From Alistipes sp. Marseille-P5061 (GTDB taxonomy: Bacteria; Bacteroidota; Bacteroidia; Bacteroidales; Rikenellaceae): a stretch of 64,000 bases of DNA. The notes under the pieces were generated by a model. It was not told the DNA's origin. It ran no database searches and saw nothing but the letters and a program-made list of their open reading frames with translations. The stretch is from assembly GCF_900290115.1 (NCBI RefSeq), contig NZ_LT985749.1:362730-426729 (forward strand), read 5' to 3'. Both the position numbers and the translations under genes were made by a program. Shown one piece after another: positions 9,464 to 50,880 of this stretch (the first letter of the stretch is position 1; every line of letters starts with the position of its first letter).

Positions 9464-9510
9464 CCGGACACCGGCCCAACGAGGCTCCGCCCCGACGCAG
9501 CGCCACCGAA

Positions 9511-9542
9511 GGCGGCAGACGAAATCCGTCTGCCGCCTTTTT
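9511..9542 (+). terminator. Rho-independent terminator after the phosphoesterase gene
   Basis: Perfect 11-bp stem (9511-9521 with 9527-9537, arm GGCGGCAGACG), loop AAATC, then TTTTT. Confidence 0.9.
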
Positions 9543-15520: not shown

Positions 15521-16603
15521 ATGAAACCGAATCAGATTCTTATCACAATATTGGCAGGCGCGGCACTCATGACCGCCTGCAAGAAGGATGATGTTCCACC
15601 CTCGGAGAAGGATGCCGTCGTGCAAATCTCCGTACGCGACCAGAAGGGTACGCCCATCAACGGAACGCCCGTACTGATATACGACGAGGAGGGTTATGCC
15701 AAGTTCCAGAAGGAGCACAACACGCCGCCGCTCGATGTGGCCGTAACCCGGGCCGACGGCAACGTGGAGTACCGCTTCGCCTACGACAAATGGCTGACGA
15801 GCGGCAAGCGCACCGTCACCTTCGTGGTCTACAAGGAGCAGGACGAGAAGAACTACGACATCTGGGCCGAGACGCGGACCCTCATGCCTTCGAAGAGCGA
15901 GCGGGTCGAAATCCGCATCGAGCTCGGGGAGAAGGAGGAGCCCAAACCCGGCACCGACCCCAAGCCCGAGCCCGGCGCGGGTGAGGAGCGGCAGCTCGAG
16001 ATGTATGACGCCGACAACGGACGCACGCTCCTCGACGGAACCCTCTTCCTCGACACGAAGCACTACTTCGACGGCGGCGACACCCATATGATAGCCGATG
16101 CGGGCGAGGTGGCAGACCTCAAGGCGCTGGGCGAGCCCGTCTTCACGGAAATTGAGGACCTTGTTGCAGCTACACCCGGTCACGGATACTTCATCTGCAG
16201 GAATATGACTTTCAAGACCTTCCCGTCGGGGGCGCACGCCCTCGCCATCGGAGCCGAATACACGAAGGTCTACGTGGCCGGGTGGCTGCAGCAGGGCGAC
16301 AAGAAGGTAGGCGTACGCCTCCACTACCAGACCGCGCAGGCCGGCACCGGAACACTGCCCGAACGGGGCCACACCTACGAAATGTCGCTCAAGGGCGAAC
16401 ACACGCTCGACGTCGAGCTGCCCGAGGCACCCGAGCTCTACGAGTTCGTGGCCCACGACAAGACGCAGCTCGAACTCGCGGGGACCCGCAACCGCATCAC
16501 GGTGCGCGTGACCGACACAGACATTGCCGAGGGACGGGAGTATCTCTTCCACGTACGCTCGGGAGTGCTCTACACCGACCTCAAGGTCAAGATTGTAGCC
16601 TGA
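15521..16603 (+). CDS. Lipoprotein of unknown function (possible DUF5036-like C-terminal part)
   Basis: A 360-residue protein with a lipoprotein signal ending MTACKKDD. Residues about 28-135 look like an Ig or carboxypeptidase-regulatory-like beta domain (short alternating strands; residues PSEKDAVVQIS onward). A proline/glutamate-rich linker (about 142-155, EEPKPGTDPKPEPG) separates it from a second beta-rich domain beginning MYDADNGRTLLDGTLFLDT, a pattern I associate with DUF5036 proteins, though not firmly. Surface-exposed in Bacteroidota if the linker export signal works. No pathway can be assigned. Start chosen at the ATG before the signal peptide. Confidence 0.7.
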   Translation: MKPNQILITILAGAALMTACKKDDVPPSEKDAVVQISVRDQKGTPINGTPVLIYDEEGYAKFQKEHNTPPLDVAVTRADGNVEYRFAYDKWLTSGKRTVTFVVYKEQDEKNYDIWAETRTLMPSKSERVEIRIELGEKEEPKPGTDPKPEPGAGEERQLEMYDADNGRTLLDGTLFLDTKHYFDGGDTHMIADAGEVADLKALGEPVFTEIEDLVAATPGHGYFICRNMTFKTFPSGAHALAIGAEYTKVYVAGWLQQGDKKVGVRLHYQTAQAGTGTLPERGHTYEMSLKGEHTLDVELPEAPELYEFVAHDKTQLELAGTRNRITVRVTDTDIAEGREYLFHVRSGVLYTDLKVKIVA

Positions 16604-17160: not shown

Positions 17161-17168
17161 TATCTTTG
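17161..17168 (+). promoter_or_regulatory. -7 element of the TetR gene promoter
   Basis: TATCTTTG, 22 bp before the ATG at 17191. None of the TGACC half-sites seen downstream of this gene occur here, which argues against simple autoregulation. Confidence 0.5.
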
Positions 17169-17190: not shown

Positions 17191-17805
17191 ATGAAAACCA
17201 ATCGGGAAGAGATTCTGCAACATGCCCTGCGACTCTTCATGTCAATGAACTACGAGGGTGTCAGCCTGCAGATGATTGCCCACAGCGTCGGACTGACCAA
17301 AACCGGAATCTTCAACTACTACCCCACGAAGCTCGACCTCTTCATCGCCGTGGCCGACCGCTACCTCTTCCACCTCCAGGACCCCGGGAACAAATTCGCC
17401 CCCTCGGACGGGTCGCTGCGCGACTTCATCGACAAATACATCGAAGGCGTCGAGCGCACCATGGACGAGATTGTACGTCTGGGCAATATCCGCCGCGAGG
17501 AGATGCCCGGACAGCTGGCCAACGCCGGATATTTCCACCTCTTCCAGCAGGTGCTCTTCTACTATCCCGACGGCAAGCGCAAACTTCACGAATGGATGGA
17601 AAAGGAGTTCCGGCTCTGGTGCGGCGTCATCGCCCGGAGTGTCGAACGGGGCGAACTGCGGGCCGACACAGATATTGAAGAGGCCGCCGCTCTGTTCCGA
17701 CAGGTCTTTATCGGTCTCTCATACCAGATGTCCTTCGACAAAGGGCTCGATGTCGGGATTCTCCGCCGGCGATTCCTCTATATATACGGGCTGCTGAAGC
17801 GCTGA
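17191..17805 (+). CDS. TetR/AcrR-family transcriptional regulator
   Basis: A 204-residue regulator. The N-terminal HTH (about 8-52: REEILQHALRLFMSM, then GVSLQMIAHSVGLTKTGIFNYYPTK) is a clear TetR DNA-binding domain; the rest is the helical ligand and dimer domain with a TetR_C pattern. A 36-bp palindrome lies 31 bp after its stop, over the promoter of the next gene, so it most likely represses the ten-gene operon that follows (inference). The inducer is unknown. The ATG at 17191 is preferred to an in-frame start at 17158 because the promoter element would lie inside the longer frame. Confidence 0.9.
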   Translation: MKTNREEILQHALRLFMSMNYEGVSLQMIAHSVGLTKTGIFNYYPTKLDLFIAVADRYLFHLQDPGNKFAPSDGSLRDFIDKYIEGVERTMDEIVRLGNIRREEMPGQLANAGYFHLFQQVLFYYPDGKRKLHEWMEKEFRLWCGVIARSVERGELRADTDIEEAAALFRQVFIGLSYQMSFDKGLDVGILRRRFLYIYGLLKR

Positions 17806-17836
17806 GCAGGCTCCCGGCGGCTTTTTTCACGAATTG

Positions 17837-17872
17837 AAGCAAAAATATGACCGTGTGGTCATATTTTTGCTT
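17837..17872. promoter_or_regulatory. TetR-type operator 1: 36-bp perfect palindrome
   Basis: Arms of 16 bp (17837-17852 and 17857-17872) around GTGT; the core is TGACC-GTGT-GGTCA, flanked by AT-rich arms. It covers the region just upstream of the -7 element at 17881. As RNA it would also form a hairpin followed by T residues, so it may terminate the TetR transcript too. Confidence 0.8.
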
Positions 17873-17880
17873 TTTTATGC

Positions 17881-17888
17881 TATCTTTG
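17881..17888 (+). promoter_or_regulatory. -7 element of the ten-gene operon
   Basis: TATCTTTG, 8 bp after operator 1 and 32 bp before the first ATG. Confidence 0.6.
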
Positions 17889-17901
17889 TCTCCGTAAAAA
17901 A

Positions 17902-17915
17902 TGACCAATCGGTAA
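17902..17915. promoter_or_regulatory. TetR-type operator 2, imperfect
   Basis: TGACC-AATC-GGTAA matches the core of operator 1 at nine of ten half-site bases with the same 4-bp spacer. It lies between the -7 element and the start codon, so the two sites bracket the transcription start. Confidence 0.55.
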
Positions 17916-17920
17916 CTTTT

Positions 17921-18400
17921 ATGGAAAACAAACCCTTCGAACGCATCCAGCGGAGCTTCAACTACACGCCTGCGAGCATCTTTACGAACCAATGGTCGAA
18001 CCTGGCCTTCGGCGCAGGAATGATTGTCATTCCCGCCATCTTCCCCTTCGGCCTCCGCATCCGCCACCTGCGGATTCTCTCGCCGGCGGTCTTCTCGACC
18101 ATTCTGATTGCGGGCGGCGTGCTGCTGCTCTTCTTCACCTGGCGGGGCATGCGCAATGCCCGGGCGCTGAAGGCCGCGGGAGGAAAAATCACCGTCGACG
18201 GCACGCGCGTAACCTATCCCGAGGTCGAGAAGGGAAAGGTCGAATACCGCTCGTTCCTTACGACCGATATCGAGTATGTGAAGGACGACGAAGAGGAGCA
18301 CCAGTGCAAGGTCAAGACGCCGGACAACTACATCGTCTTCGAGACACGCTACTTCGACTCCGAGGAGGAGTTCGAAGCCTTCCGCTCGCTGCTGGGATAA
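17921..18400 (+). CDS. Two-helix inner-membrane protein, first gene of the TetR-controlled operon
   Basis: A 159-residue protein with transmembrane segments at about 27-43 and 56-73 joined by a short basic loop (RIRHLR), and a cytoplasmic C-terminal domain (about 85-159) that alternates short strands and ends in an acidic helix (SEEEFEAFRSLL). The arrangement resembles bacterial PH-like (YcxB or bPH) membrane proteins, but that is a weak structural guess. It has a good promoter with two operator-like sites. The next gene starts 27 bp after its stop. Function is unknown. Confidence 0.75.
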   Translation: MENKPFERIQRSFNYTPASIFTNQWSNLAFGAGMIVIPAIFPFGLRIRHLRILSPAVFSTILIAGGVLLLFFTWRGMRNARALKAAGGKITVDGTRVTYPEVEKGKVEYRSFLTTDIEYVKDDEEEHQCKVKTPDNYIVFETRYFDSEEEFEAFRSLLG

Positions 18401-18427: not shown

Positions 18428-19114
18428 ATGAAAGCAATCATCACCCAATGGCTCTATGCCGCAGGTGCGGCCATGCTGGCACTGACCTCCTGCGGGTCGG
18501 GCGAAACCTATCCGATGGCCTCCGCCGAGGGACTTGCCAAAATCCGTGAACTCGTTGCAGCGAACGTCGACACCTCGCAGTACAAGATTTACACGGTGGA
18601 GTGGCGCGAGGACAACCGCGACCGCCAGCTGGAGAACATTCTCACATATATCGACGTCTACTACCTCGACGCCGACAACAACGACTACCACCTCTCGTTC
18701 CAACTCACCAACGGGAAGTTCACGACCGACGGTCCGGAGCTGAACGACCGCCGGAGCTACTCCTATGCATGCACGACGCCGCTCGACATCGCGGCCATCG
18801 ACTTTGACTACCTCCAGAAAATCGGCGAACGGGCAGACTCTCTGGTTATGTCCGACGAGGAGGGCAAACACCTGACCCTGAAGTCGGCCGGGATGTTCCG
18901 TTTCCGGATGTGGCCGGTGGGGCTGAGCAGCGTCGACCGCTGGAACCGCAGCGATGAGTACCGTGCGGAGTCGAAGCAAATGCAGGTGCAGTTCGAACTG
19001 AACTACGTCGACGAAAGCGAATCGCCCGAATACCAGGGACGCTTCACCGTGACGAACTACTACACGGTCGCCTTCACGGCCAATGCCTCGGGAGAGGTCT
19101 CCATCGACAATTAA
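18428..19114 (+). CDS. Lipoprotein of unknown function, operon gene 2
   Basis: A 228-residue protein with a lipoprotein signal ending ALTSCGSG (Cys22). The mature part mixes helices and strands: a helical stretch near 35-50, a strand-rich middle (YTVEWRED, YIDVYYLDAD) and a basic/aromatic block (FRFRMWPVGLSSVDRW). Its length and spacing suit a small single-domain envelope protein. No known family recognised. The following gene may start within its 3' end or just after it. Confidence 0.75.
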   Translation: MKAIITQWLYAAGAAMLALTSCGSGETYPMASAEGLAKIRELVAANVDTSQYKIYTVEWREDNRDRQLENILTYIDVYYLDADNNDYHLSFQLTNGKFTTDGPELNDRRSYSYACTTPLDIAAIDFDYLQKIGERADSLVMSDEEGKHLTLKSAGMFRFRMWPVGLSSVDRWNRSDEYRAESKQMQVQFELNYVDESESPEYQGRFTVTNYYTVAFTANASGEVSIDN

Positions 19115-19124
19115 CCGCACGGAA

Positions 19125-19628
19125 ATGGGACTGATGGGCAACGCCCAGCCGATGGCGGGAGCGGACTCCGAACGGCTTTTTGCGGCCGGAGTTGCCTGCA
19201 TCTGCTGCGAAGCGTGGCCTATGGCCTACGTCTGCTTCGAGCGCTCCGCACGCGAGGACGCCCCGACACGCTACAACCAGGCTCTGTGCTGCTTCCATGT
19301 AGAGTGGTACGAAGAGAGCTACCGGCTGCTCGCAGAGTCCGAACGGTTGCTCGACATCCAGTCTGCCGGAATCTCCGGGCCGGGTGTTACGTCCGCTCCG
19401 CGCCGGCAACTTCCAGAAGCTTTCCGCCGCTGGGATACCGACGGTGAATTGCCCCGCTGTCCGCTGCTGCCCGAGACACCGCGCGACGATGCCCTCACGC
19501 TAATCCTCCGCCTGCGGGCCGAGGCGGCCTTCCGACTGGGCCGCTGCGAGGAGGTTCGGACGATTGCCGCCCGCCTCGGGCACCGATACAAACACCTTGA
19601 AAACCTGCTCAAAACGATTGACCGATGA
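19125..19628 (+). CDS. Small TPR-like protein, operon gene 3
   Basis: A 167-residue, mostly helical protein with no signal. It contains TPR-like pairs (LFAAGVACICCEAWPMAYVCFERSA then TRYNQALCCFHVEWYEESYRLLAES) and a C-terminal helix pair (LRAEAAFRLGRCEEVRTIAARLG), split by a low-complexity loop. Its stop overlaps the ATG of the next gene by 4 bp (ATGA), so translation is coupled to the ankyrin protein. I start at 19125; ATGs at 19083 and 19134 are alternatives. It may be a cytoplasmic scaffold. Confidence 0.65.
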   Translation: MGLMGNAQPMAGADSERLFAAGVACICCEAWPMAYVCFERSAREDAPTRYNQALCCFHVEWYEESYRLLAESERLLDIQSAGISGPGVTSAPRRQLPEAFRRWDTDGELPRCPLLPETPRDDALTLILRLRAEAAFRLGRCEEVRTIAARLGHRYKHLENLLKTIDR

Positions 19629-21154
19629 CACCGCTCCGGGAACTCTACGACCTTTATTACTATCCGAACCCTGCAAAGGAGGAGCGCCGGCGACAACTCC
19701 TTGCCGAGATTCCGACCGACGCACGCGACGAGGAGAACTACGGCCGCACGTCGCTGCATATTGCAGCGGAGTTCGCCGACTGCGAGGCCATTGCTTCGCT
19801 GCTCGACCGCGGGGCCGGAGTGAACGACCGCGACACGGAGGGACACACGCCCCTCTTCCGTCTGGCCTCGCGCCGCAGCAGGGTGGCTACACAGGAAGAA
19901 CAGATTGCCGCGGCGGCACGGCTGCTGCTGGATTGCGGCGCGAACCTTCCGCGTTCGGCTCGCGGCACGACGGCGCTGCTCGAGGCCGTGCAAAACCGTC
20001 ACCACGCGATGGCCGCTGTGCTGATCGACTCCGGACAGCGGCTCGACTCCGCGAACAGCTACGGCGACAATGCCCTGCACAACCTCTGCCGGCGCGCCGC
20101 CGATACCGCACGGGAGATCGCCGGCAAGGAGCGTTTTATCGCCAGCTTCGGCGAACGGTGGGTCTCGGAGAAACAGCAGCGGGAAGCCCGCGAGGAGTTG
20201 GAGGAGCTCCGGGCGGAACAGATGCGCTGTTATGCAACGGCGGCACTGCTGCTCCACAGCGGGCAGATCGACCCCGACGAGAAAAATTCGGCCGGCCGAC
20301 GTCCGTTTGACTTCGCCATGGAGGGCGGAGCCCAATGGGTGGGCGCCCTGCTCTCGGGCGGGGACCCGTTCGATGAACTCACCATGGAGACCGGCGGGAT
20401 GAGCCTCTTCCAGACGCTGCGCAAAAAGGACCGGAAAGCGCTGGAGGCCCTGCTGCAGGCAGGTGTCGATCTCAATGCGGAGTGCGACGACCGCGGAATG
20501 AGCGACTGGACGGGCAAAACGCCGTTGGCCTGCGCGCTGGAGTGGGGCGAGACTGAAATCGCGGCAATGCTGCTCCGGGCCGGTGCCGACCCCGACCGGC
20601 GGACCTCGAAAGGGGTGGCTCCCTTTGCCGTCTGGATCGGGCAGGGATGCCGTGTCTCGGACGGCATGGAGCGGTTTGCGCCGCTCATGGAGCTCTTCGA
20701 AGAGCGGGGATGGCACCCCGATGCCCCACAGACGGAGAAAGACGAACGGGCCCTTATGCTGGTGTGCCAGCACGATGATTACGAACTGGCCATCTGGACC
20801 TTGCGGCGACTGCTGAAACAAAAGGTCGAGGTGAATGCCCGCGATGCGATGGGCCGCACGGCCTTGATGCATCTGCTGGGCCCGCACAGCGCCGGGCCGT
20901 ATCAGCCGGAGATGCTGGAACGGCTGCTGGAAGCCGGCGCCGACCCCTGTGCCACGGACAACGAAGGACGTACCGTGCTGCACTATGCGGCCGAGGGCTA
21001 CACGCATGCGGCGGCACGGCAGGCAGCCGAACTGCTCTTCGACTTCGGGCGGCCCGATGTCTCGGCCGCCGACAATGAGGGGCGCACGCCGCTCGACATT
21101 GCCCAGCGCAGCAACAACGAGTCGCTTGTGAAATTTTTGCTGAAACACGTCTGA
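19625..21154 (+). CDS. Ankyrin-repeat protein, operon gene 4
   Basis: A 509-residue cytoplasmic-looking protein (no signal). At least eight ankyrin-like repeats are visible: around 40-70 (YGRTSLHIAAEFADCEAIASLL), 71-110, 118-150, then after a charged helical insertion (about 165-205) repeats near 218-245, 297-330, 395-430 and a strong C-terminal pair (EGRTVLHYAAEGY and EGRTPLDIAQRSN). Several central repeats are degenerate. Overlaps the preceding gene by 4 bp and precedes another ankyrin gene by 10 bp. Ankyrin repeats bind proteins; in bacteria they are often part of immunity, effector or stress modules. The partner is unknown. Confidence 0.85.
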   Translation: MTPLRELYDLYYYPNPAKEERRRQLLAEIPTDARDEENYGRTSLHIAAEFADCEAIASLLDRGAGVNDRDTEGHTPLFRLASRRSRVATQEEQIAAAARLLLDCGANLPRSARGTTALLEAVQNRHHAMAAVLIDSGQRLDSANSYGDNALHNLCRRAADTAREIAGKERFIASFGERWVSEKQQREAREELEELRAEQMRCYATAALLLHSGQIDPDEKNSAGRRPFDFAMEGGAQWVGALLSGGDPFDELTMETGGMSLFQTLRKKDRKALEALLQAGVDLNAECDDRGMSDWTGKTPLACALEWGETEIAAMLLRAGADPDRRTSKGVAPFAVWIGQGCRVSDGMERFAPLMELFEERGWHPDAPQTEKDERALMLVCQHDDYELAIWTLRRLLKQKVEVNARDAMGRTALMHLLGPHSAGPYQPEMLERLLEAGADPCATDNEGRTVLHYAAEGYTHAAARQAAELLFDFGRPDVSAADNEGRTPLDIAQRSNNESLVKFLLKHV

Positions 21155-21164
21155 AATCAACGCT

Positions 21165-22154
21165 ATGGATACCTTCCAGACCTTTCTGAACGCCTGCCGC
21201 AACGGGCAGAAAAACATCGTAAAAATCCTCCTCGAACGGGGCGGCATCGACCTCAACCGGCGCGATGCCGAGGGCAATACGGCGCTCCATTACGTCTGCC
21301 GCGAAGGATACCGGGATTTGGCGGTGCTGCTGCTGGATAAGGGAGCCGATGCCTCGTTGGTAAACAACCGGGGCGAAACGCCGCTCCACGCCGCCGCCCG
21401 AAAGGGCAATCGCGAGATTCTGGCCCTTCTCCTCGATGCCGGGGCCGAACCGGATGCCGCCGACCGGGAGGGCTGCACGCCGCTGATGCGGCTCGTGGAG
21501 AACCGACGCACGGGTGCCGCGCTGTGGTTGATTGACCGCGGTGCCGATACCGAGGCTACGGACCAGACGGGACACCGCGCTCTGGACTACGCCACGGTAC
21601 ACGGGCTGACGGAGGTGGTGGCACGGCTGAGCCAAAACGGATCCGACGCGACGGACAGCCGTGATGCCGAAGGCAACACGCCGCTGCACCAGGCGGTCTA
21701 CAACGATCAGGCCGAGGTCGTGCGTACACTGCTCGCGGACTCGAAAGCGCAACTCGATGCGCCGAACGATGCGGGCGAAACACCGTTGCTGGTGGCGTGC
21801 GGACGCGGTAATCTGCACATTGCCCGGATGCTCCTCGACGCCGGAGCCGATGCCAACCGTCCGCTGCCCGACGGGACAACGCCGCTGCATTGGGCGGCAC
21901 AAGCGGGCAATCGCTTCCTCGTGGAGAGACTGCTCGGGGCTGGAGCGTCGATCGATGCCCGCAACGGGGTGGGCGAGACGCCCCTGCTCGTGGCATCACG
22001 TGCCGGGAACAACGAAATAGTGCGCCTGCTTGTGAAGCGTCATGCCGAAGTCAATGCGGCAGACAACCTCCAGCACACTGCGCTCTACTATGCCGGAGAA
22101 CGCGGCTTTTCGGAGATTGTCGAACTGTTGCTCACGGCCGGCGCCGAAGGATAA
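21165..22154 (+). CDS. Ankyrin-repeat protein, operon gene 5
   Basis: A 329-residue protein made almost entirely of about nine well-conserved ankyrin repeats of 33 residues (for example EGNTALHYVCREGYRDLAVLL, RGETPLHAAARKGNREILALL, DGTTPLHWAAQAGNRFLVERL). No signal peptide or membrane segment. The repeats are much cleaner than those of the neighbour, so the two genes are not a recent simple duplication. It is probably a curved binding surface for another protein of the operon. Regulated with the operon. Confidence 0.9.
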   Translation: MDTFQTFLNACRNGQKNIVKILLERGGIDLNRRDAEGNTALHYVCREGYRDLAVLLLDKGADASLVNNRGETPLHAAARKGNREILALLLDAGAEPDAADREGCTPLMRLVENRRTGAALWLIDRGADTEATDQTGHRALDYATVHGLTEVVARLSQNGSDATDSRDAEGNTPLHQAVYNDQAEVVRTLLADSKAQLDAPNDAGETPLLVACGRGNLHIARMLLDAGADANRPLPDGTTPLHWAAQAGNRFLVERLLGAGASIDARNGVGETPLLVASRAGNNEIVRLLVKRHAEVNAADNLQHTALYYAGERGFSEIVELLLTAGAEG

Positions 22155-22185
22155 AATGGATCGAAAACCTTAAAACATACCGAAC

Positions 22186-23190
22186 ATGGCAAACGAGAAG
22201 ATGAAACCCCAATGCCCGGAGGAGATTGCCCGGGCGGCGCAGGAGGTGGCCTTGGAGCAGATGCGCGCAATGATGGGCTCGATTCCGGGGATGCCCGACA
22301 TGGGCGACATGCAGGCACAAATCATGGCCCAGATGCAGGCTGCCATGCCCAATCTGGCGGAGATTCAGGCGCAGCAGGCCGCCATGGGAACGCTCGGAGG
22401 TGTGGATGCCGCCGCCGTAGCCGAGGCCGCACGACACAATATGGCGCAGGCCACCGCAACCATGCAGGCGATGCAGGACGGGAGTCTCGAAAAGGAGTTG
22501 CGCGAAGCAAATGCCGCGGCGCTCGACTGGCTGGGCGAGGACGACGGCTGGGAGATCAGGCACGCCGCGACGTGCCGGCTGACTGCGGAGCAGCGCCGAC
22601 TGATGGCTTTTGCCGCACCGCTGCTGGTCTATAACGATGAGGCGGTGGATGCCGTCGAGAGCGAGGTCCTGCCCGAAACCTACCGCGCGCAACTTCAGAG
22701 CTGGTGGAACATTACGGACCGCGAATCGACGCTCGAAATCGTCCGGTGGCTGCTCCACGAAGGACACCATGCGGATGCCGACGCGGCGCTGGCGCTCATG
22801 CGTGGCGACCAGCCCGAAGCGGGCGATCCCGAAGAGAAGGCCGAGGATGTGCAGGCCATCGCGGAGTTTATGGTCGAAAACGGGTATTGCACAGCTGAAA
22901 TGCTTCCGCGGACGGTCATCGCGTGGGATCTGGTGCGCATTGCCAACCTCGGACGCTGGGCCCTTCACGCCGGTTATCTCTCCGAGGAGGAGATGTGGCA
23001 GGTGATGCAAGTGGCGGCCGATGCCGCCCGCGAGCACTTCTCGTCATGGGAGGAGTACGGACGCAGCTTTGCCATGGGTCGCGGCGTCTGGCACGGCGAC
23101 GAGGAGGATTGCCAGACCGCCTGGGAGATTGTCACCGCGCTGCTCGAAGAGGAACAGTCGCTCTGGCGGCAGATTCCATGGAACGCATAG
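22186..23190 (+). CDS. DUF1266 protein, soluble, operon gene 6
   Basis: A 334-residue protein. The N-terminal ~100 residues are methionine- and glutamine-rich with a GSIPGMPDMGDMQAQI stretch and helical low complexity. The C-terminal part (about 230-334) matches DUF1266: AWDLVRIANLGRWALHAGY, then a glutamate-rich helix, FSSWEEYGRSFAMGRGVW, and the closing LWRQIPW. DUF1266 (PF06889; E. coli YbeR and YbeU) has no established function. No signal sequence. A second, membrane-anchored DUF1266 gene follows after 21 bp. Confidence 0.8.
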   Translation: MANEKMKPQCPEEIARAAQEVALEQMRAMMGSIPGMPDMGDMQAQIMAQMQAAMPNLAEIQAQQAAMGTLGGVDAAAVAEAARHNMAQATATMQAMQDGSLEKELREANAAALDWLGEDDGWEIRHAATCRLTAEQRRLMAFAAPLLVYNDEAVDAVESEVLPETYRAQLQSWWNITDRESTLEIVRWLLHEGHHADADAALALMRGDQPEAGDPEEKAEDVQAIAEFMVENGYCTAEMLPRTVIAWDLVRIANLGRWALHAGYLSEEEMWQVMQVAADAAREHFSSWEEYGRSFAMGRGVWHGDEEDCQTAWEIVTALLEEEQSLWRQIPWNA

Positions 23191-23211
23191 CACCCCGACA
23201 ACGCCGAAACG

Positions 23212-24045
23212 ATGGAACGGGGACCTGAATTCTACGTGATGCTGGCCGCCGTGGCGGTCGGTGCCCTGACGTGGCTCTACCGCAAGGGCAGCCGGGTCTG
23301 GCGAACGGTGCGCAAGCTGCGCCGGTCGTTTCAGGAAATTTGCCTGAATCCGAAATCGACGCTCGATGACGAACACGGCCGCCAACTGGCCATCGGGGCG
23401 ATGTACGCCTCGCAGCAGGGGGCCTGGCAGAATTCGCTGGAGACAGGGATTTTCGACGCGCTGCCCGAGATTGTGGGCGGCTGGTGGGGCATCGACTCCG
23501 CCGCCGAGGCCCGCAAGCAACTGGACTACCTTTGTGAAAAGGGATTCCGCTACTACTGGCCCACGGTGCTCGAAGCCTTTCGGCTCGACGGCCGCGAACG
23601 GCAGGACGAACTCCTCCAGCAGCGGATGACCTCGCAGGAGGATTACGACAAGGCCTCGTCGCAACTCGAAAACCTGCGGGAGACCTTTGACGAACTCCTC
23701 TCGTGCGGCGTGGTCGCCTCGAAGGAGGAGCTCGGCCGCTGCAACGTGACGGGCTGGGATGCCGGGCGCATGGTCTTTCTGGCGCGCGCCTGCTGCGAAA
23801 TGGGCTATCTCACCGAAGAGGAGGCATGGGCGTACATCGGCCGGGCCGATGCGCTGGCGCACAAGGCGTGCGGATCGTGGCGCGAACTGGCCATGAGCTA
23901 CATCCTCGGGCGTTCGCTGTGGGGTGGCAAACGGGCCTATAACTCGGTGATGAAGACGATGGCCGACGTGCTGCTGAGCAACCCCAAGAGCCCGTGGGTG
24001 AGCTGCCCGTGGCAACAGAATGAATCAAAATCAGACCAATCATGA
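23212..24045 (+). CDS. DUF1266 protein with N-terminal membrane anchor, operon gene 7
   Basis: A 277-residue protein with a transmembrane segment at about 7-23, then a helical domain. The DUF1266 block is at about 180-275: GWDAGRMVFLARACCEMGYL, TEEEAWAYIGRAD, GSWRELAMSYILGRSLW and the closing SPWVSCPW. It also has a short conserved region around IFDALPEIVGGWWGIDSA. Paralogue of the gene before it, but anchored and lacking the methionine-rich head. Its last codon overlaps the ATG of the next gene by 4 bp. Confidence 0.8.
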   Translation: MERGPEFYVMLAAVAVGALTWLYRKGSRVWRTVRKLRRSFQEICLNPKSTLDDEHGRQLAIGAMYASQQGAWQNSLETGIFDALPEIVGGWWGIDSAAEARKQLDYLCEKGFRYYWPTVLEAFRLDGRERQDELLQQRMTSQEDYDKASSQLENLRETFDELLSCGVVASKEELGRCNVTGWDAGRMVFLARACCEMGYLTEEEAWAYIGRADALAHKACGSWRELAMSYILGRSLWGGKRAYNSVMKTMADVLLSNPKSPWVSCPWQQNESKSDQS

Positions 24046-24674
24046 AATTCCGACTCTGGATTGCATCCATCCTTCTACTCGCCGCCACAGGCTGCGCAAG
24101 CACCCGTAAATCCAAGGAAATCAACCCACCTTTCGTGGCCTCCGAATCGACCTGGTTGTATCGGGATGCCGAGGTGGTAAACCGCCGTCTGAAACCCCTC
24201 GAACGTCCGCAGGTGCGCTTTGAGGTCGAGCACGCCATCCTGCACGGGGATTCGGTCTGGGTGGTGGTTCGCGCGACCATTCCCCACCGCTCGATCCGCC
24301 GCGGGGAGTGTTTCAAGGCCATAAGTGTTCTTCAAGCCTCCGAGGGCATCATGGAGCTGGGTGAGCTGTCGCTCGACTCGGGCCATTTCATGCCCGATGA
24401 AGAGGGAGACGTGGATGTGACAACCCGTCCCGGACGGATGCAGAACCTCTATCTCTCGTGGCGCTTTGCCTGGGACGAGCGCATGCGAATGAATACCTTC
24501 ATCGTGGTCTTCGCCAGTTTGACCGACGGTCGCCACCTGTTCCAGTATCTGCCCCTGATGCTGCCGCTCTTCTGGATTGATGATACGAAGGATGAGCTTT
24601 ACTGGCCCCGGTCGGCCGGGATTCCCGAGGAGGTCCTGCTCGACCGTTCACCCTTCGAAACTGCCGTCGAGTGA
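24042..24674 (+). CDS. Lipoprotein of unknown function, operon gene 8
   Basis: A 210-residue protein with a lipoprotein signal ending LLAATGCAST. The mature domain is strand-rich (QVRFEVEHAILHGDSVWVVVRATI; LYLSWRFAWDERMRMNTFIVVFASL) and may be a beta-sandwich. Start overlaps the preceding DUF1266 gene (ATGA), and the next gene begins one base after its stop, so all three are translationally linked. Family not recognised. Confidence 0.75.
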   Translation: MKFRLWIASILLLAATGCASTRKSKEINPPFVASESTWLYRDAEVVNRRLKPLERPQVRFEVEHAILHGDSVWVVVRATIPHRSIRRGECFKAISVLQASEGIMELGELSLDSGHFMPDEEGDVDVTTRPGRMQNLYLSWRFAWDERMRMNTFIVVFASLTDGRHLFQYLPLMLPLFWIDDTKDELYWPRSAGIPEEVLLDRSPFETAVE

Positions 24675-24675
24675 T

Positions 24676-25794
24676 ATGGAAAAAGTTATTCGGCGCAGAT
24701 TCGGACTGCTGCTCGCACTGACACTTCCAATCTGGAGTGTACAAGGCGAACAGGCTCCGACAGACGACCTTCCCGACTTCAATGTTGTACCGGAAAACGC
24801 CGCCCGGGCGGTCCTGCTCCACGCCGCCACCCCGGAATGCGACACCGTGCGCAGCTGTCTCTCGATTGGGGCCGTTCAGCCGCGGGCTCGGGGTGACTAC
24901 GAGATTTTGCTCTCCAGCAACCAATACGCCGACCAAACTCCGACCATCATCACGGAGGAGGGGACACCGTTGACATGGCTTCGCAGTTCCTCTTCCGCAT
25001 CCTGGAGCAACGGCACCATGACACGTATCTGCCGGCACTTCTATCGCTTCGCTCCCGCCAAAAAGGGCGAGTACCGGTTTCGCTGCCGGGACCTCTCGTT
25101 CGACGGGGTGGCCTACGACGGCGTACTGACGATCCAGGTCGGAGCACCGGAGCTAAATGCCGTTCCCACCTTTCTTTTATGGGTGGCGGGAATCGGATGT
25201 CTGCTCCTCGTTGAAGTATTCATTCGGATTGGATGCCGCAACGAAGCCCGGGTCGATACGGCCGGCTTCATTCGGCGACACCGCAGGCTGCCGCTCAACG
25301 CCGAGGGGGTCTGGGCCCATTACCTGCTTCCAATCATGCTCCTCTATCTTCCGCTCTTCCTGGCTCTCATCACACTCACAGGGATGGCGTCCATTTCGAC
25401 AAATGTGTTTCTCTGGACCTCGGGTGTCTGCGTCCCGGTGGCTTTCGTCCTCTTCCGCCTCCAATACCGCAGGCTTTTCTTCCTCTGGAGAAAAACGGTG
25501 CTGCCGCCAGAGCGGATCGACGCTTTGCTTCGGGAGCTGGCCGAGCAGTACGACTGGACGATCGACCACATGGACCGGGATTTTTTTGTCGCACACACCC
25601 ATCCCGCATGGTGGAGCGCCACGTGGGGTGAACAGATCTTCGTCGCGCACGACCGCGGCGGCATCTGGATCAACAGCATCAATGACCTCGGCAAGCGCAG
25701 TTCGATCGTCTCGTTTGGATATACCCGCCGGAACATCCGCAGGGTGACAGAGGCAATCACTGCACAGGAAAAAGATATCCATTCACCAATATAA
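24676..25794 (+). CDS. Multi-pass membrane protein with extracytoplasmic beta domain, operon gene 9
   Basis: A 372-residue protein. A signal-like N-terminus (about 9-24) leads into a domain of about 150 residues outside the cytoplasm that looks beta-rich (residues about 40-150). Membrane segments lie near 160-178, 216-240 and 247-266. The C-terminal ~95 residues are cytoplasmic, with QYDWTIDHMDRDFFVAHTHPAWWS and a strand WGEQIFVAHDRGGIWINS. No family recognised. Likely spans the inner membrane and links the lipoproteins outside to the soluble proteins inside (inference from operon context). Its ATG follows the previous stop by one base. Confidence 0.7.
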   Translation: MEKVIRRRFGLLLALTLPIWSVQGEQAPTDDLPDFNVVPENAARAVLLHAATPECDTVRSCLSIGAVQPRARGDYEILLSSNQYADQTPTIITEEGTPLTWLRSSSSASWSNGTMTRICRHFYRFAPAKKGEYRFRCRDLSFDGVAYDGVLTIQVGAPELNAVPTFLLWVAGIGCLLLVEVFIRIGCRNEARVDTAGFIRRHRRLPLNAEGVWAHYLLPIMLLYLPLFLALITLTGMASISTNVFLWTSGVCVPVAFVLFRLQYRRLFFLWRKTVLPPERIDALLRELAEQYDWTIDHMDRDFFVAHTHPAWWSATWGEQIFVAHDRGGIWINSINDLGKRSSIVSFGYTRRNIRRVTEAITAQEKDIHSPI

Positions 25795-25804
25795 GCCCGA
25801 TACC

Positions 25805-28291
25805 ATGACACCGTTGAAAATCGCCCCGCTGCCCGGATGCACTCCCGGGACGGTCGAAAAAATCGATGCACTCAACCGCAAACTCGGATTGTTCATCCAC
25901 GCTCCTCTCAATCTCAAGGAGGTGCTGCGCATGGAGCCGTTCGCCGCCGACGCGGAGGTGGTACGGGCCGTTGCGGCGACACTCGACAACTACGCCATCC
26001 TCCCGACCTCGCCCACGGAGCGCGAACGCCAACGCACGACGGGCCTTCCGAAGGATTACGACATCGTGGGGTTCTGGTACTGTGTGGCGCTTCTCGCCCT
26101 TTCGGCAGAGCCGGAGGCCGTGCGGTATCTGCTCGTGCTGGCGCGCATACTGATGGTCGAGGATCCCGCGAAGCTGTTCCTGCTGCGGCGCATCGTCCGT
26201 CTGCTGGAGGGATTTCCATTTCCCCACCTGCAGGAACTCAGAAGTCGGATTGAAGGCTTCTACGACACCGTTACGCACCAATTGGAGGCCTTCCGATGGC
26301 TGGAGGCCGCCGGGATTCCGTGGCCCGAGTCATACGAATGGGAGGTCATCACGCAATTCTCCTCCGACGGCGAGCCCTATGCCGACCCGGCGGCTCCGAA
26401 GAAAGAGTGGCGCAGGCGCGTGGTGCTGACACTCCAGCTGAACAGTCCCCGCAGCCTCTACGGCAGCTGTCGCCAGCACAACAGCTTCGAGATTTCGCTC
26501 CGCAACGACGACAACACGACGCGCGGCCTATGGAACGAAGGCCACGGCGATCTCTTCATCGAAGACCGCCCCGTGATGCAGCACCGGATGTTCACGCCGC
26601 TGCAGCTTCCGGAACTGTTCGACGTGCTCGAAGGGTTCGGTATCCGGCTGGTGCGCAAACCCGTGATGGTCTACACGAGTCAGGGAATCCGAAAGGCCCA
26701 CGTGAAGGTGTTTCAGATGCTCGAGAATCAGCTCGGGCACAAGCCTTCGGAGATCGGACAAGCCGAAGAAGAGGCCCAGACGAAAGCAGAGGACGATGCG
26801 GGCGGCATGTCGGCAGGAAAAGCAGGGAAAGGCCAATTCCCGGAGGTCGAGCGGGCCGTAGAGGAGGCGCTGGACCTGCTCAAATACGACGGGGATGTGA
26901 ACGACTCGCTGGCTGAGATGCGTAAAAAATGGGGCGAAGGGATTTCGGTGCTGCATGAAGCCCGATTCGACGAGATTGGGGTGCAATATGCCTGCCGCTC
27001 GCACGAAGAGGGACTTGCTGCTCTCGGGCAGGAGCTGACCTGCCACGGATACCGGCTCTACGACCTCGACGGCGACGATATCTACCTCCTCACGTTGCAA
27101 CCGGAGGCTCACGTTGCGGATTTCGAAAAGGCTTGCGGAAAGGCGGGTCAATATTGTCGGCAGTTGAAGCAGCCAGGGCGTGCACCGGGCACTCCGGCCC
27201 GAGCACTCGATCCTAGGCGTACGATGCCCTGCGAAGAGGTGCCATGGCCCGATGATGCCGACTACATGCTCGACGCGCTGGCCGGCGACTTCTGCAGCGG
27301 GAGGTGGAAAAGCCGCGATGCGGAGGAGTGGCAGGGAAATTTCGTCGCCGACCTCCGCCAGCGGCCGCTGCAACCGGTCAAGGTGCGCTGGAACCGGTTT
27401 TGCTGCCTGACCTACTCCCCGGAGATGGATTTCTATGCGGCGTTTTACTACATTCCGCCCATGCAGTGCTGGATGCTTCTCGGGGGCAAGAATCCCCTGG
27501 AAGCGAACAGTTGGAAGCGGCTGTGCGACCTGCCAAAACAGGAATCGCCCTTTCTTTTCTTCGACCAGCGGCCCCGATGGTTCGGCCGCTACCTCTGCTT
27601 CGGCGACCGGCAGAGCGCCACGATCCTCACGATGAATCCGCAGGGAGTGGAGCGCGTCCAGCGTTTTCCCCTGCCCAAGGCGCAGCACCCTTGCAGGTTC
27701 GCCTGCGACGGACTCGGACGCATCCTCCTTGCACACGGCGAAGAGACCTATCGCTACGACAACGGCACGCTCACTCCGCTGGGCTTCCACATATTGAGCG
27801 GCGACGGGTTCAACGGCTCCATCCCTGTACCCGGAACCGGCCGACTGGTAATGTGCGGCTTCTCGAACCGGGAGGTGGTTGCCCGGCTGCTGGAACTCGA
27901 CATCGACACGCGCCGCTGCCGGGCCACCCGTATGCAGAATGTGGATCCCTGGTCGAACCTACTCCCGTTTGGAGACGACTGGACGCTAATCAAAGGAGCT
28001 TGTGATTCGATGCGCCTGGATTTCGCCCGACTCTGGAATCGCCCGACGGGCGAAGTGCTACGCATCCGTCCCGGGATGTTCGGCAGCGAAAAACTCGAAC
28101 ATATCGGACGGCTGAGCGATGGCCGTGTGGTGTTGACCACACTTCGCTCCCATGTGGGACAAGTCGTGCACTTTCCCGCGGATTTCTGGAATTTTCTCCG
28201 CTCGGCCAGTCGTCCGCAAACTCTGGAGCCGATGCAACCCTACGAAACACTCTATCCAGATATTCCGCTGACACTACCCGAAAGATCATAA
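25805..28291 (+). CDS. Large orphan protein, last gene of the operon (gene 10)
   Basis: An 828-residue protein without signal or membrane segment. Apparent layout: a helical domain (1-165), a mixed alpha/beta domain (about 185-310, with a RRVVLTLQLNSPRSLYGS strand), a charged linker (about 320-348), a small domain (about 350-450, with GVQYACRSHEEGLAALGQ and YRLYDLDGDDIYLLTL) that may relate to DUF6630, and a C-terminal region (about 500-828) with recurrent short strand pairs such as GRYLCFGDRQSATILTM and GRLVMCGFSNREVVARLLEL, suggesting a beta-propeller. No catalytic motif recognised. It ends 90 bp before the terminator. Confidence 0.65.
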   Translation: MTPLKIAPLPGCTPGTVEKIDALNRKLGLFIHAPLNLKEVLRMEPFAADAEVVRAVAATLDNYAILPTSPTERERQRTTGLPKDYDIVGFWYCVALLALSAEPEAVRYLLVLARILMVEDPAKLFLLRRIVRLLEGFPFPHLQELRSRIEGFYDTVTHQLEAFRWLEAAGIPWPESYEWEVITQFSSDGEPYADPAAPKKEWRRRVVLTLQLNSPRSLYGSCRQHNSFEISLRNDDNTTRGLWNEGHGDLFIEDRPVMQHRMFTPLQLPELFDVLEGFGIRLVRKPVMVYTSQGIRKAHVKVFQMLENQLGHKPSEIGQAEEEAQTKAEDDAGGMSAGKAGKGQFPEVERAVEEALDLLKYDGDVNDSLAEMRKKWGEGISVLHEARFDEIGVQYACRSHEEGLAALGQELTCHGYRLYDLDGDDIYLLTLQPEAHVADFEKACGKAGQYCRQLKQPGRAPGTPARALDPRRTMPCEEVPWPDDADYMLDALAGDFCSGRWKSRDAEEWQGNFVADLRQRPLQPVKVRWNRFCCLTYSPEMDFYAAFYYIPPMQCWMLLGGKNPLEANSWKRLCDLPKQESPFLFFDQRPRWFGRYLCFGDRQSATILTMNPQGVERVQRFPLPKAQHPCRFACDGLGRILLAHGEETYRYDNGTLTPLGFHILSGDGFNGSIPVPGTGRLVMCGFSNREVVARLLELDIDTRRCRATRMQNVDPWSNLLPFGDDWTLIKGACDSMRLDFARLWNRPTGEVLRIRPGMFGSEKLEHIGRLSDGRVVLTTLRSHVGQVVHFPADFWNFLRSASRPQTLEPMQPYETLYPDIPLTLPERS

Positions 28292-28380: not shown

Positions 28381-28422
28381 AAAATCGCTTAATCCGTATA
28401 TATCAACAGATTAAGCGATTTT
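28381..28422. terminator. Bidirectional terminator between the operon and tRNA-Leu
   Basis: A perfect 14-bp stem (28381-28394 with 28409-28422) with AAAA on one side and TTTT on the other, loop of 14 nt. It can end the plus-strand operon and the minus-strand tRNA transcript. Confidence 0.85.
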
Positions 28423-28424
28423 CA

Positions 28425-28511
28425 TGGTACCCGGAGCCGGGGTCGAACCGGCACGACATTGCTGTCATTGGTGTTTGAGACCAACGCGTCTACCGATTCC
28501 GCCATCCGGGC
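28425..28511 (-). tRNA. tRNA-Leu (anticodon CAA)
   Basis: 87 nt including encoded CCA. Acceptor GCCCGGA pairs with TCCGGGT (G1-U72 wobble), the D arm has the class II GGCGGAATCGGTAGAC form, the anticodon loop is CTCAAAC with CAA, a long variable arm follows (about 14 nt), and the T arm is CCGG-TTCGACC-CCGG. Discriminator A is normal for leucine. Confidence 0.95.
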
Positions 28512-46284: not shown

Positions 46285-46322
46285 AAAGCGGGGCGGTACC
46301 TGATGGGTACCGCCCCGCTTTT
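46285..46322 (+). terminator. Rho-independent terminator after the PfkB kinase gene
   Basis: Perfect 16-bp stem (46285-46300 with 46306-46321, outer AAAGCGGGGCGGTACC), loop TGATG, T run at the end. Confidence 0.92.
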
Positions 46323-50801: not shown

Positions 50802-50850
50802 CATCCACAACGCCCCGCACCCGCTCCATACTTCACCCAACGCCACCACA

Positions 50851-50880
50851 AGAGCCTCTGCCTCAAGGCAGAGGCTCTTT
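50851..50880 (+). terminator. Rho-independent terminator after dsbD
   Basis: Perfect 12-bp stem (50851-50862 with 50867-50878, arm AGAGCCTCTGCC), loop TCAA, then T-rich sequence. Confidence 0.88.

Follow-up and report, generated by a model that had tools for sequence, protein, structure and literature searches.

Two putative TetR operators at the promoter of a ten-gene operon in Alistipes sp. Marseille-P5061, one of them within a palindrome that may also terminate tetR

Main finding

Our analysis of a 64,000-nucleotide stretch of Alistipes sp. Marseille-P5061 DNA (the window) revealed two putative TetR operators at the promoter of a ten-gene operon that lies directly downstream of a tetR gene on the same strand. 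The product of this gene (17191-17805) very probably acts as a local repressor through these paired sites. A TetR dimer bound to site 1 (17848-17861) would cover the operon promoter's -33 region, and TetR would also bind site 2 (17902-17915), presumably at lower affinity. With both sites bound, RNA polymerase would be excluded from the promoter of the membrane/ankyrin/DUF1266 operon, and a ligand would release TetR and free the operon; we infer the binder, the repression, the order of affinities and the ligand from the observed sequence, geometry and conservation of the sites. The features on which this scheme is built are as follows.

17161-17168, plus strand: -7 element TATCTTTG of the tetR promoter (sequence, motif enrichment), operator-free nearby
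17191-17805, plus strand: tetR, encoding a TetR-family regulator of 204 aa (Pfam, AlphaFold model, PDB matches)
17837-17872, no strand: 36-bp perfect palindrome, an operator core with terminator-like outer arms (inverted-repeat, terminator, fold and alignment analyses)
17848-17861, no strand: core of putative operator site 1, TGACCGTGTGGTCA (kept in relatives; right half at the expected -33 position)
17881-17888, plus strand: -7 element TATCTTTG of the operon promoter (sequence, motif enrichment, chosen loci)
17902-17915, no strand: putative operator site 2, TGACCAATCGGTAA, imperfect, just past the expected transcription start (21 of 22 chosen loci)
17921-18400, plus strand: first operon gene, encoding a 159-aa membrane-like protein (structure model, Pfam)
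18428-28291, plus strand: rest of the putative operon, with lipoprotein-like, two ankyrin-repeat, two DUF1266 and further uncharacterised genes

The regulator and its putative operon

The tetR product matched the Pfam family PF00440 (TetR_N; E 1.6e-08, 34.6 bits against a cut-off of 24), and its match to TetR_C_11, at 25.5 bits, fell under the cut-off of 32 for that family. Its AlphaFold model is all-helical (pLDDT 87.9), and the best 50 Foldseek matches of this model were mostly TetR-family or known TetR-type regulators, with TM values of about 0.5-0.7.

The putative operon comprises ten codirectional genes up to 28291 and is followed at about 28381-28423 by a hairpin with a T-run, a site that we recognised by our own reading and that the scan, with its loop limit of 8, does not list. 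The model of the 159-aa protein shows two long predicted helices and a small beta domain (pLDDT 78.2), and no Pfam family scored above cut-off for this protein; the label lipoprotein-like reflects our own reading of N-termini. A scan for the exact form of TATCTTTG located none inside the operon. With tetR and nine of the ten operon proteins as input (all but the first ankyrin protein), PADLOC returned no defence system, ankyrin cross-matches aside, and NCBIfam returned no named function, its DUF1266 and TetR matches lying under the curated cut-offs; the Pfam input was tetR and nine of the ten operon proteins, all but that of 24676-25794. At gathering thresholds, the sole Rfam match was a minus-strand tRNA at 28428-28511. 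Relatives from several genera carry different genes downstream.

The palindrome, the promoter and the two sites

The palindrome at 17837-17872 reads AAGCAAAAATATGACC-GTGT-GGTCATATTTTTGCTT, that is, two perfect 16-bp arms around a 4-nt spacer. These arms are, jointly with those of one other repeat, the longest of any perfect inverted repeat in the 64-kb window (loop up to 8), and the longest arm reached in 20 single-base shuffles of the window was 12. Other long perfect palindromes, at 46285-46321, 50850-50879 and 9509-9539, have GC-rich stems with A/T ends and are probably ordinary terminators.

Bacteroidota promoters differ from sigma-70-type promoters, and a scan for the latter type returned none near the palindrome. 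The Bacteroides promoter consensus, as given in the accessible part of the source, has TAnnTTTG at -7 and TTTG near -33 (PMC7366714). Within the 64-kb window TATCTTTG was found 10 times against 0.39 expected, which marks it as a real -7 motif here. Between the end of the site 1 core and the -7 box lie 19 bp, so that the right half of the core falls at the expected -33 element; the presumed transcription start would place site 2 at about +9 to +24, ending 5 bp before the ATG at 17921. A sequence-only reading of this DNA had described a perfect 36-bp palindrome ending 8 bp before the -7 element, which is exact to the base (17872 against 17881), and a second site between the -7 element and the start codon that shares nine of ten half-site bases with the first, both of which were confirmed (17902-17915; 9/10). 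It had also held that the tetR promoter lacks the sites, and the operator scan of the 64-kb window, allowing one mismatch, agreed: no TGACCN4GGTCA-type site occurs at that promoter, the nearest operator-like match, with one mismatch, being at 16576 within the preceding open frame. Classical autorepression is therefore not expected.

By itself, the operator motif is weakly enriched in the window. TGACCN4GGTCA with at most one mismatch occurs five times against 1.94 expected, a count that 3 of 100 shuffles also reached, and two of the five matches sit within one 79-bp stretch. The exact motif is found at two places in the whole genome, namely in this palindrome and inside a long open frame that we take to be uvrB, and so the genome showed no extra perfect promoter site that would point to a wider regulon. 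Compared with its reversed control, the motif was not clearly enriched in several of eight whole genomes. The form TGACCN4GGTAA likewise occurs at two places in the genome, site 2 being one of them.

Conservation of the paired sites in relatives

A scan of named genomes yielded 24 tetR loci, to which further genome searches added more. The first operon gene adjoins tetR in 13 of the 24, and all 13 of these carry the two sites, neither of which deviates by more than one mismatch. Judging from this 13/13 count, the paired sites are not due to chance, although locus counts are not independent because of shared ancestry and possibly transfer. Across the 24 loci, both sites were found in 14, site 1 only in two (L048, where the contig ends, and L056, where the first gene is missing) and no adjacent site in eight; five of these eight lie at a contig edge (L049, L062, L064, L066, L067) and the others are L051, L052 and L053. 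L052 and L053 carry an intact tetR with no adjacent site. The tetR at L051:6001-6612, which contains a single internal stop and lacks a nearby operator, is a decayed copy. The intact tetR of L052 lies about 22 kb from the operon on the same contig (L097; G573 contig 13), and the operon promoter there keeps both sites; in this genome, regulator and operon have been separated.

For closer comparison, we used a set of 22 rows, namely the window, the 14 two-site loci and L056, L033, L042, L069, L071, L097 and L099. In L099 only the last tetR codons are left; since the metagenome bin from which it comes has a tetR of its own (69% identical), L099 may be a contaminant. The rows were picked for having site 1, and a loose pattern applied 15-34 bp downstream served to place the -7 box; counts of 22/22 for site 1 and the -7 box therefore hold partly by construction. 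At this place the box reads TATCTTTG, TATATTTG, TACCTTTG or TATCTTTA (matches to the loose pattern). Of the 22 chosen loci, 18 have perfect TGACC/GGTCA half-sites at site 1, and the half-sites hold while the spacer takes 20 different forms, its first base being A or G in 22/22 and its last C or T in 21/22. From the end of the site 1 core to the -7 box the distance is 19 bp in 14 of the chosen loci, 20 in six, 18 in one and 21 in one. Site 2 is present in 21 of the 22 chosen promoters, starting 55 bp after the start of site 1 in 12 of these 21, 54 in four, 57 in two, 53 in two and 49 in one; it ends 4-6 bp before the ATG in 20/21 and 17 bp before it in L058, a locus with no first-gene match. 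Only in L056, again with no first-gene match, is site 2 absent. Aligning the palindrome in related species, the check named beforehand, thus showed the half-sites, the -7 distance and site 2 to be kept. A dependence on helical phasing of the two sites (53-57 bp, about five turns) is unneeded, given the 49 bp in L065 and the sufficiency of promoter geometry.

These patterns bear on the simplest alternative, in which the palindrome is only a tetR terminator and site 2 is coincidental. The terminator scan does list the palindrome, which folds strongly, but invariant half-sites with free spacers, a fixed -7 distance and the presence of site 2 in 13/13 first-gene loci would all be left unexplained, and we regard this alternative as highly improbable.

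The distribution of the system is sporadic. Among 180 genomes of the genus, that of the window included, 15 had a tetR match (E up to 1e-10) and 17 a first-gene match; among 393 genomes of the order, again with that of the window, tetR was matched at 1e-30 in eight and the first gene at 1e-10 in five. Going by record titles, the system occurs in Alistipes, Barnesiella and Millionella, and in metagenome bins that bear the names Bacteroides, Paraprevotella and others. At seven loci with more distant homologues of the first gene (34-39% identical), the examined stretch gave no tetR match, and we saw no operator-promoter arrangement by eye. Viral contigs contained no exact double-site pattern, and a comparison of the promoter region with plasmids gave no match.

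Site 2 is consistently imperfect

Site 1 is a perfect palindrome in most chosen loci (the 18 of 22 above), against 0/21 for site 2; the scans behind this zero were able to match perfect sites and covered the window, the 14 loci and L033, L042, L069, L071, L097 and L099. Of the 21 forms, 18 read TGACC..GGTAA, and AGACC..GGTAA, TGACC..GGTTA and the inverted TTACC..GGTCA account for one each. The inverted case suggests that it is the imperfection itself that is kept, rather than one particular sequence beside the ATG. Such imperfection would fit a lower-affinity site and equally avoidance of a start-codon hairpin.

Recognition helix and a sister lineage

All 14 aligned TetRs share residues K37 to Y44 of the recognition helix. 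A sister lineage, L110, has a TetR that is 39-40% identical and a first gene that is 49% identical; its helix stretch reads SRMGIHHYF, against TKTGIFNYY in the main lineage, and instead of the TGACC type it has a GTATA-type palindrome, 20 bp upstream of its -7 box (counted by eye). L109 resembles L110 in helix and palindrome position, but its tetR changes frame part-way, with matches in two frames, which leaves L110 as the only clean sister case. No second copy of the GTATA palindrome was seen by eye in L109 or L110. Kept half-sites with free spacers, the fixed -7 geometry, a published motif and the joint change of helix and palindrome together support the sites as putative TetR operators.

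At another locus, L072, a TGAACGATTGTTCA palindrome precedes a -7-like box 3' of a TetR homologue (48% identical to that of L063), and the next gene in L072 and L073 is integrase-like by reading.

A possible tetR terminator in the outer arms

The sequence-only reading had proposed that a pair of TetR dimers could clamp the promoter. Comparison supports its paired putative operators, but it gives only part of the picture: it treats all 36 bp as an operator, whereas just about 14 bp and A/T flanks are common to site 2, and it had overlooked the consistent imperfection of that site. The A/T pairs 10-12 bp from the centre are common at both sites and may be operator flanks. What lies beyond them comprises two features.

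17837-17842, no strand: left outer arm, -18 to -13 from the centre (compensatory changes with the right arm)
17867-17876, plus strand: right outer arm (17867-17872) and T-run (17871-17876) of a putative tetR terminator (terminator scan, fold, alignment)

The terminator scan listed a terminator-like site at 17836-17873 (four sites in total against 2.5 expected), and the palindrome folds at -22.8 kcal/mol (z -6.5). A stable stem followed by a T-run thus lies 3' of tetR, as in an intrinsic terminator. In the 22-row alignment, 98.0% of 352 palindrome cells are paired and T at 17871-17875 is invariant in 22/22 rows; the stem is kept by compensatory change, although constraint on a DNA palindrome would look alike. 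We give about an even chance to the reading that the palindrome is at once operator site 1, as DNA, and the intrinsic terminator of tetR, as RNA, which would add to the repressor explanation rather than compete with it.

Several observations point toward such a fusion. The outer arms at positions 13 to 17 on either side of the centre are Watson-Crick paired in 98/110 cells at site 1 and in 25/105 at site 2; TetR binding at site 2 would thus not need the outer arms, and arm pairing together with the T-run is consistent with an intrinsic terminator of tetR that has merged with the operator. Two-sided changes occupy 21 cells against 6.1 in shuffles that do not keep relatedness (0/500 as high), and 19 of the 21 fall at columns 14-16. 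On the TetR tree, in which 10 of 19 inner branches are open, pair 15 changed at least three times, once to a wobble, and the arms shortened symmetrically three times. Between the tetR stop and the palindrome, L054, L055, L060, L061, L065 and L071 have no other hairpin more stable than -0.5 kcal/mol. In L097, where 14 kb contain no adjacent tetR, the arms are mismatched at 15 and 17 and an additional GC-rich hairpin with a T-run lies upstream, and L109 has a separate hairpin with a T-run and no T-run after its palindrome. Against the fusion, the window's other long palindromes look GC-rich, and L057 combines fully paired arms with an additional GC-rich hairpin that has a T-run (-8.8); small hairpins (-2.9 to -9.0) occur at this place in several other Alistipes loci and in L056 and L059 as well. 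L097, moreover, is a single case in which the T-run is kept and a 12-bp stem still folds.

Matched arms could also be kept by quasi-palindrome correction. Imperfect palindromes are known to become perfect through template switching, and the outer arms might be matched by such mutation with no function at all; this is unlikely, as one-sided G-T cells persist in L046, L033 and L047, the T-run is invariant in 22 rows, and site 2 has been left imperfect in 21 loci. Long operators bound by pairs of dimers are known in the TetR family, as with QacR, and the arm symmetry could instead reflect two TetR dimers on one long operator, with no terminator. The accessible part of the SbtR report describes a second, slower complex attributed to a 4:1 stoichiometry (PMC4948773), which would suit this arrangement. 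However, site 2 has no symmetry beyond 12 bp, and the arms change sequence yet stay paired, unlike base-specific contacts, which makes the two-dimer operator a distinctly unlikely account.

Implications and comparison with known systems

If operator and terminator are indeed fused, one palindrome would serve in two molecules, as a TetR operator over the -33 of the operon in DNA and as the tetR terminator in RNA. A bound TetR, standing in the path of the polymerase that is finishing tetR, could affect the 3' end of the tetR transcript. It could tune this end or sharpen termination and so feed back on tetR in spite of the operator-free tetR promoter, and the imperfect site 2 would avoid a start-codon hairpin or set a weaker second binding step. 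We give somewhat less than an even chance to this reading as a whole. A literature search by title and start of abstract, most subscription papers lying outside its scope, located no such operator/terminator fusion.

For gut Bacteroidales, the analysis provides a concrete candidate TetR-operator pair that could serve as a regulatory part and whose natural variants include a re-specified sister system. Should the fusion be true, the terminator of the repressor would be the operator of the repressed promoter, a compact arrangement missed by gene-by-gene annotation. Two points merit testing, the fusion of operator with terminator and the persistent imperfection of site 2.

TetR double-operator repression is a known kind of system. 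In Tn10, tetR and tetA are divergent and autoregulated, and TetR dimers on a double operator repress by occlusion. The arrangement here resembles Tn10 in its two operators, in TetR dimers and in the occlusion that we propose, and differs in that tetR is codirectional with the operon and its own promoter has no site. Site 1 is a TGACYRNNYRGTCA-type palindrome, as in SbtR/PfmR-type operators. For SbtR, a TetR-family protein of Thermus thermophilus, the accessible part of the report gives the operator consensus TGACYRNNYRGTCA (PMC4948773); site 1 fits this 14-bp operator with equal spacing, a likeness known from the operator alone. PfmR (TTHB023) of Thermus thermophilus (3vpr) was the top PDB sequence match of the TetR profile, and the similarity, among the best 60 of 88 PDB matches, lies mainly in the HTH (residues 2-51). 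In the accessible part of its report, an earlier proposed PfmR site reads TACCGACCGNTNGGTN, with a later consensus and the probe m8 of related form, and two target promoters have two sites each (PMC7022988). The operator motif found here is related to that of PfmR as described there, and, unlike the TetR studied here, PfmR has sites at its own gene and controls other genes.
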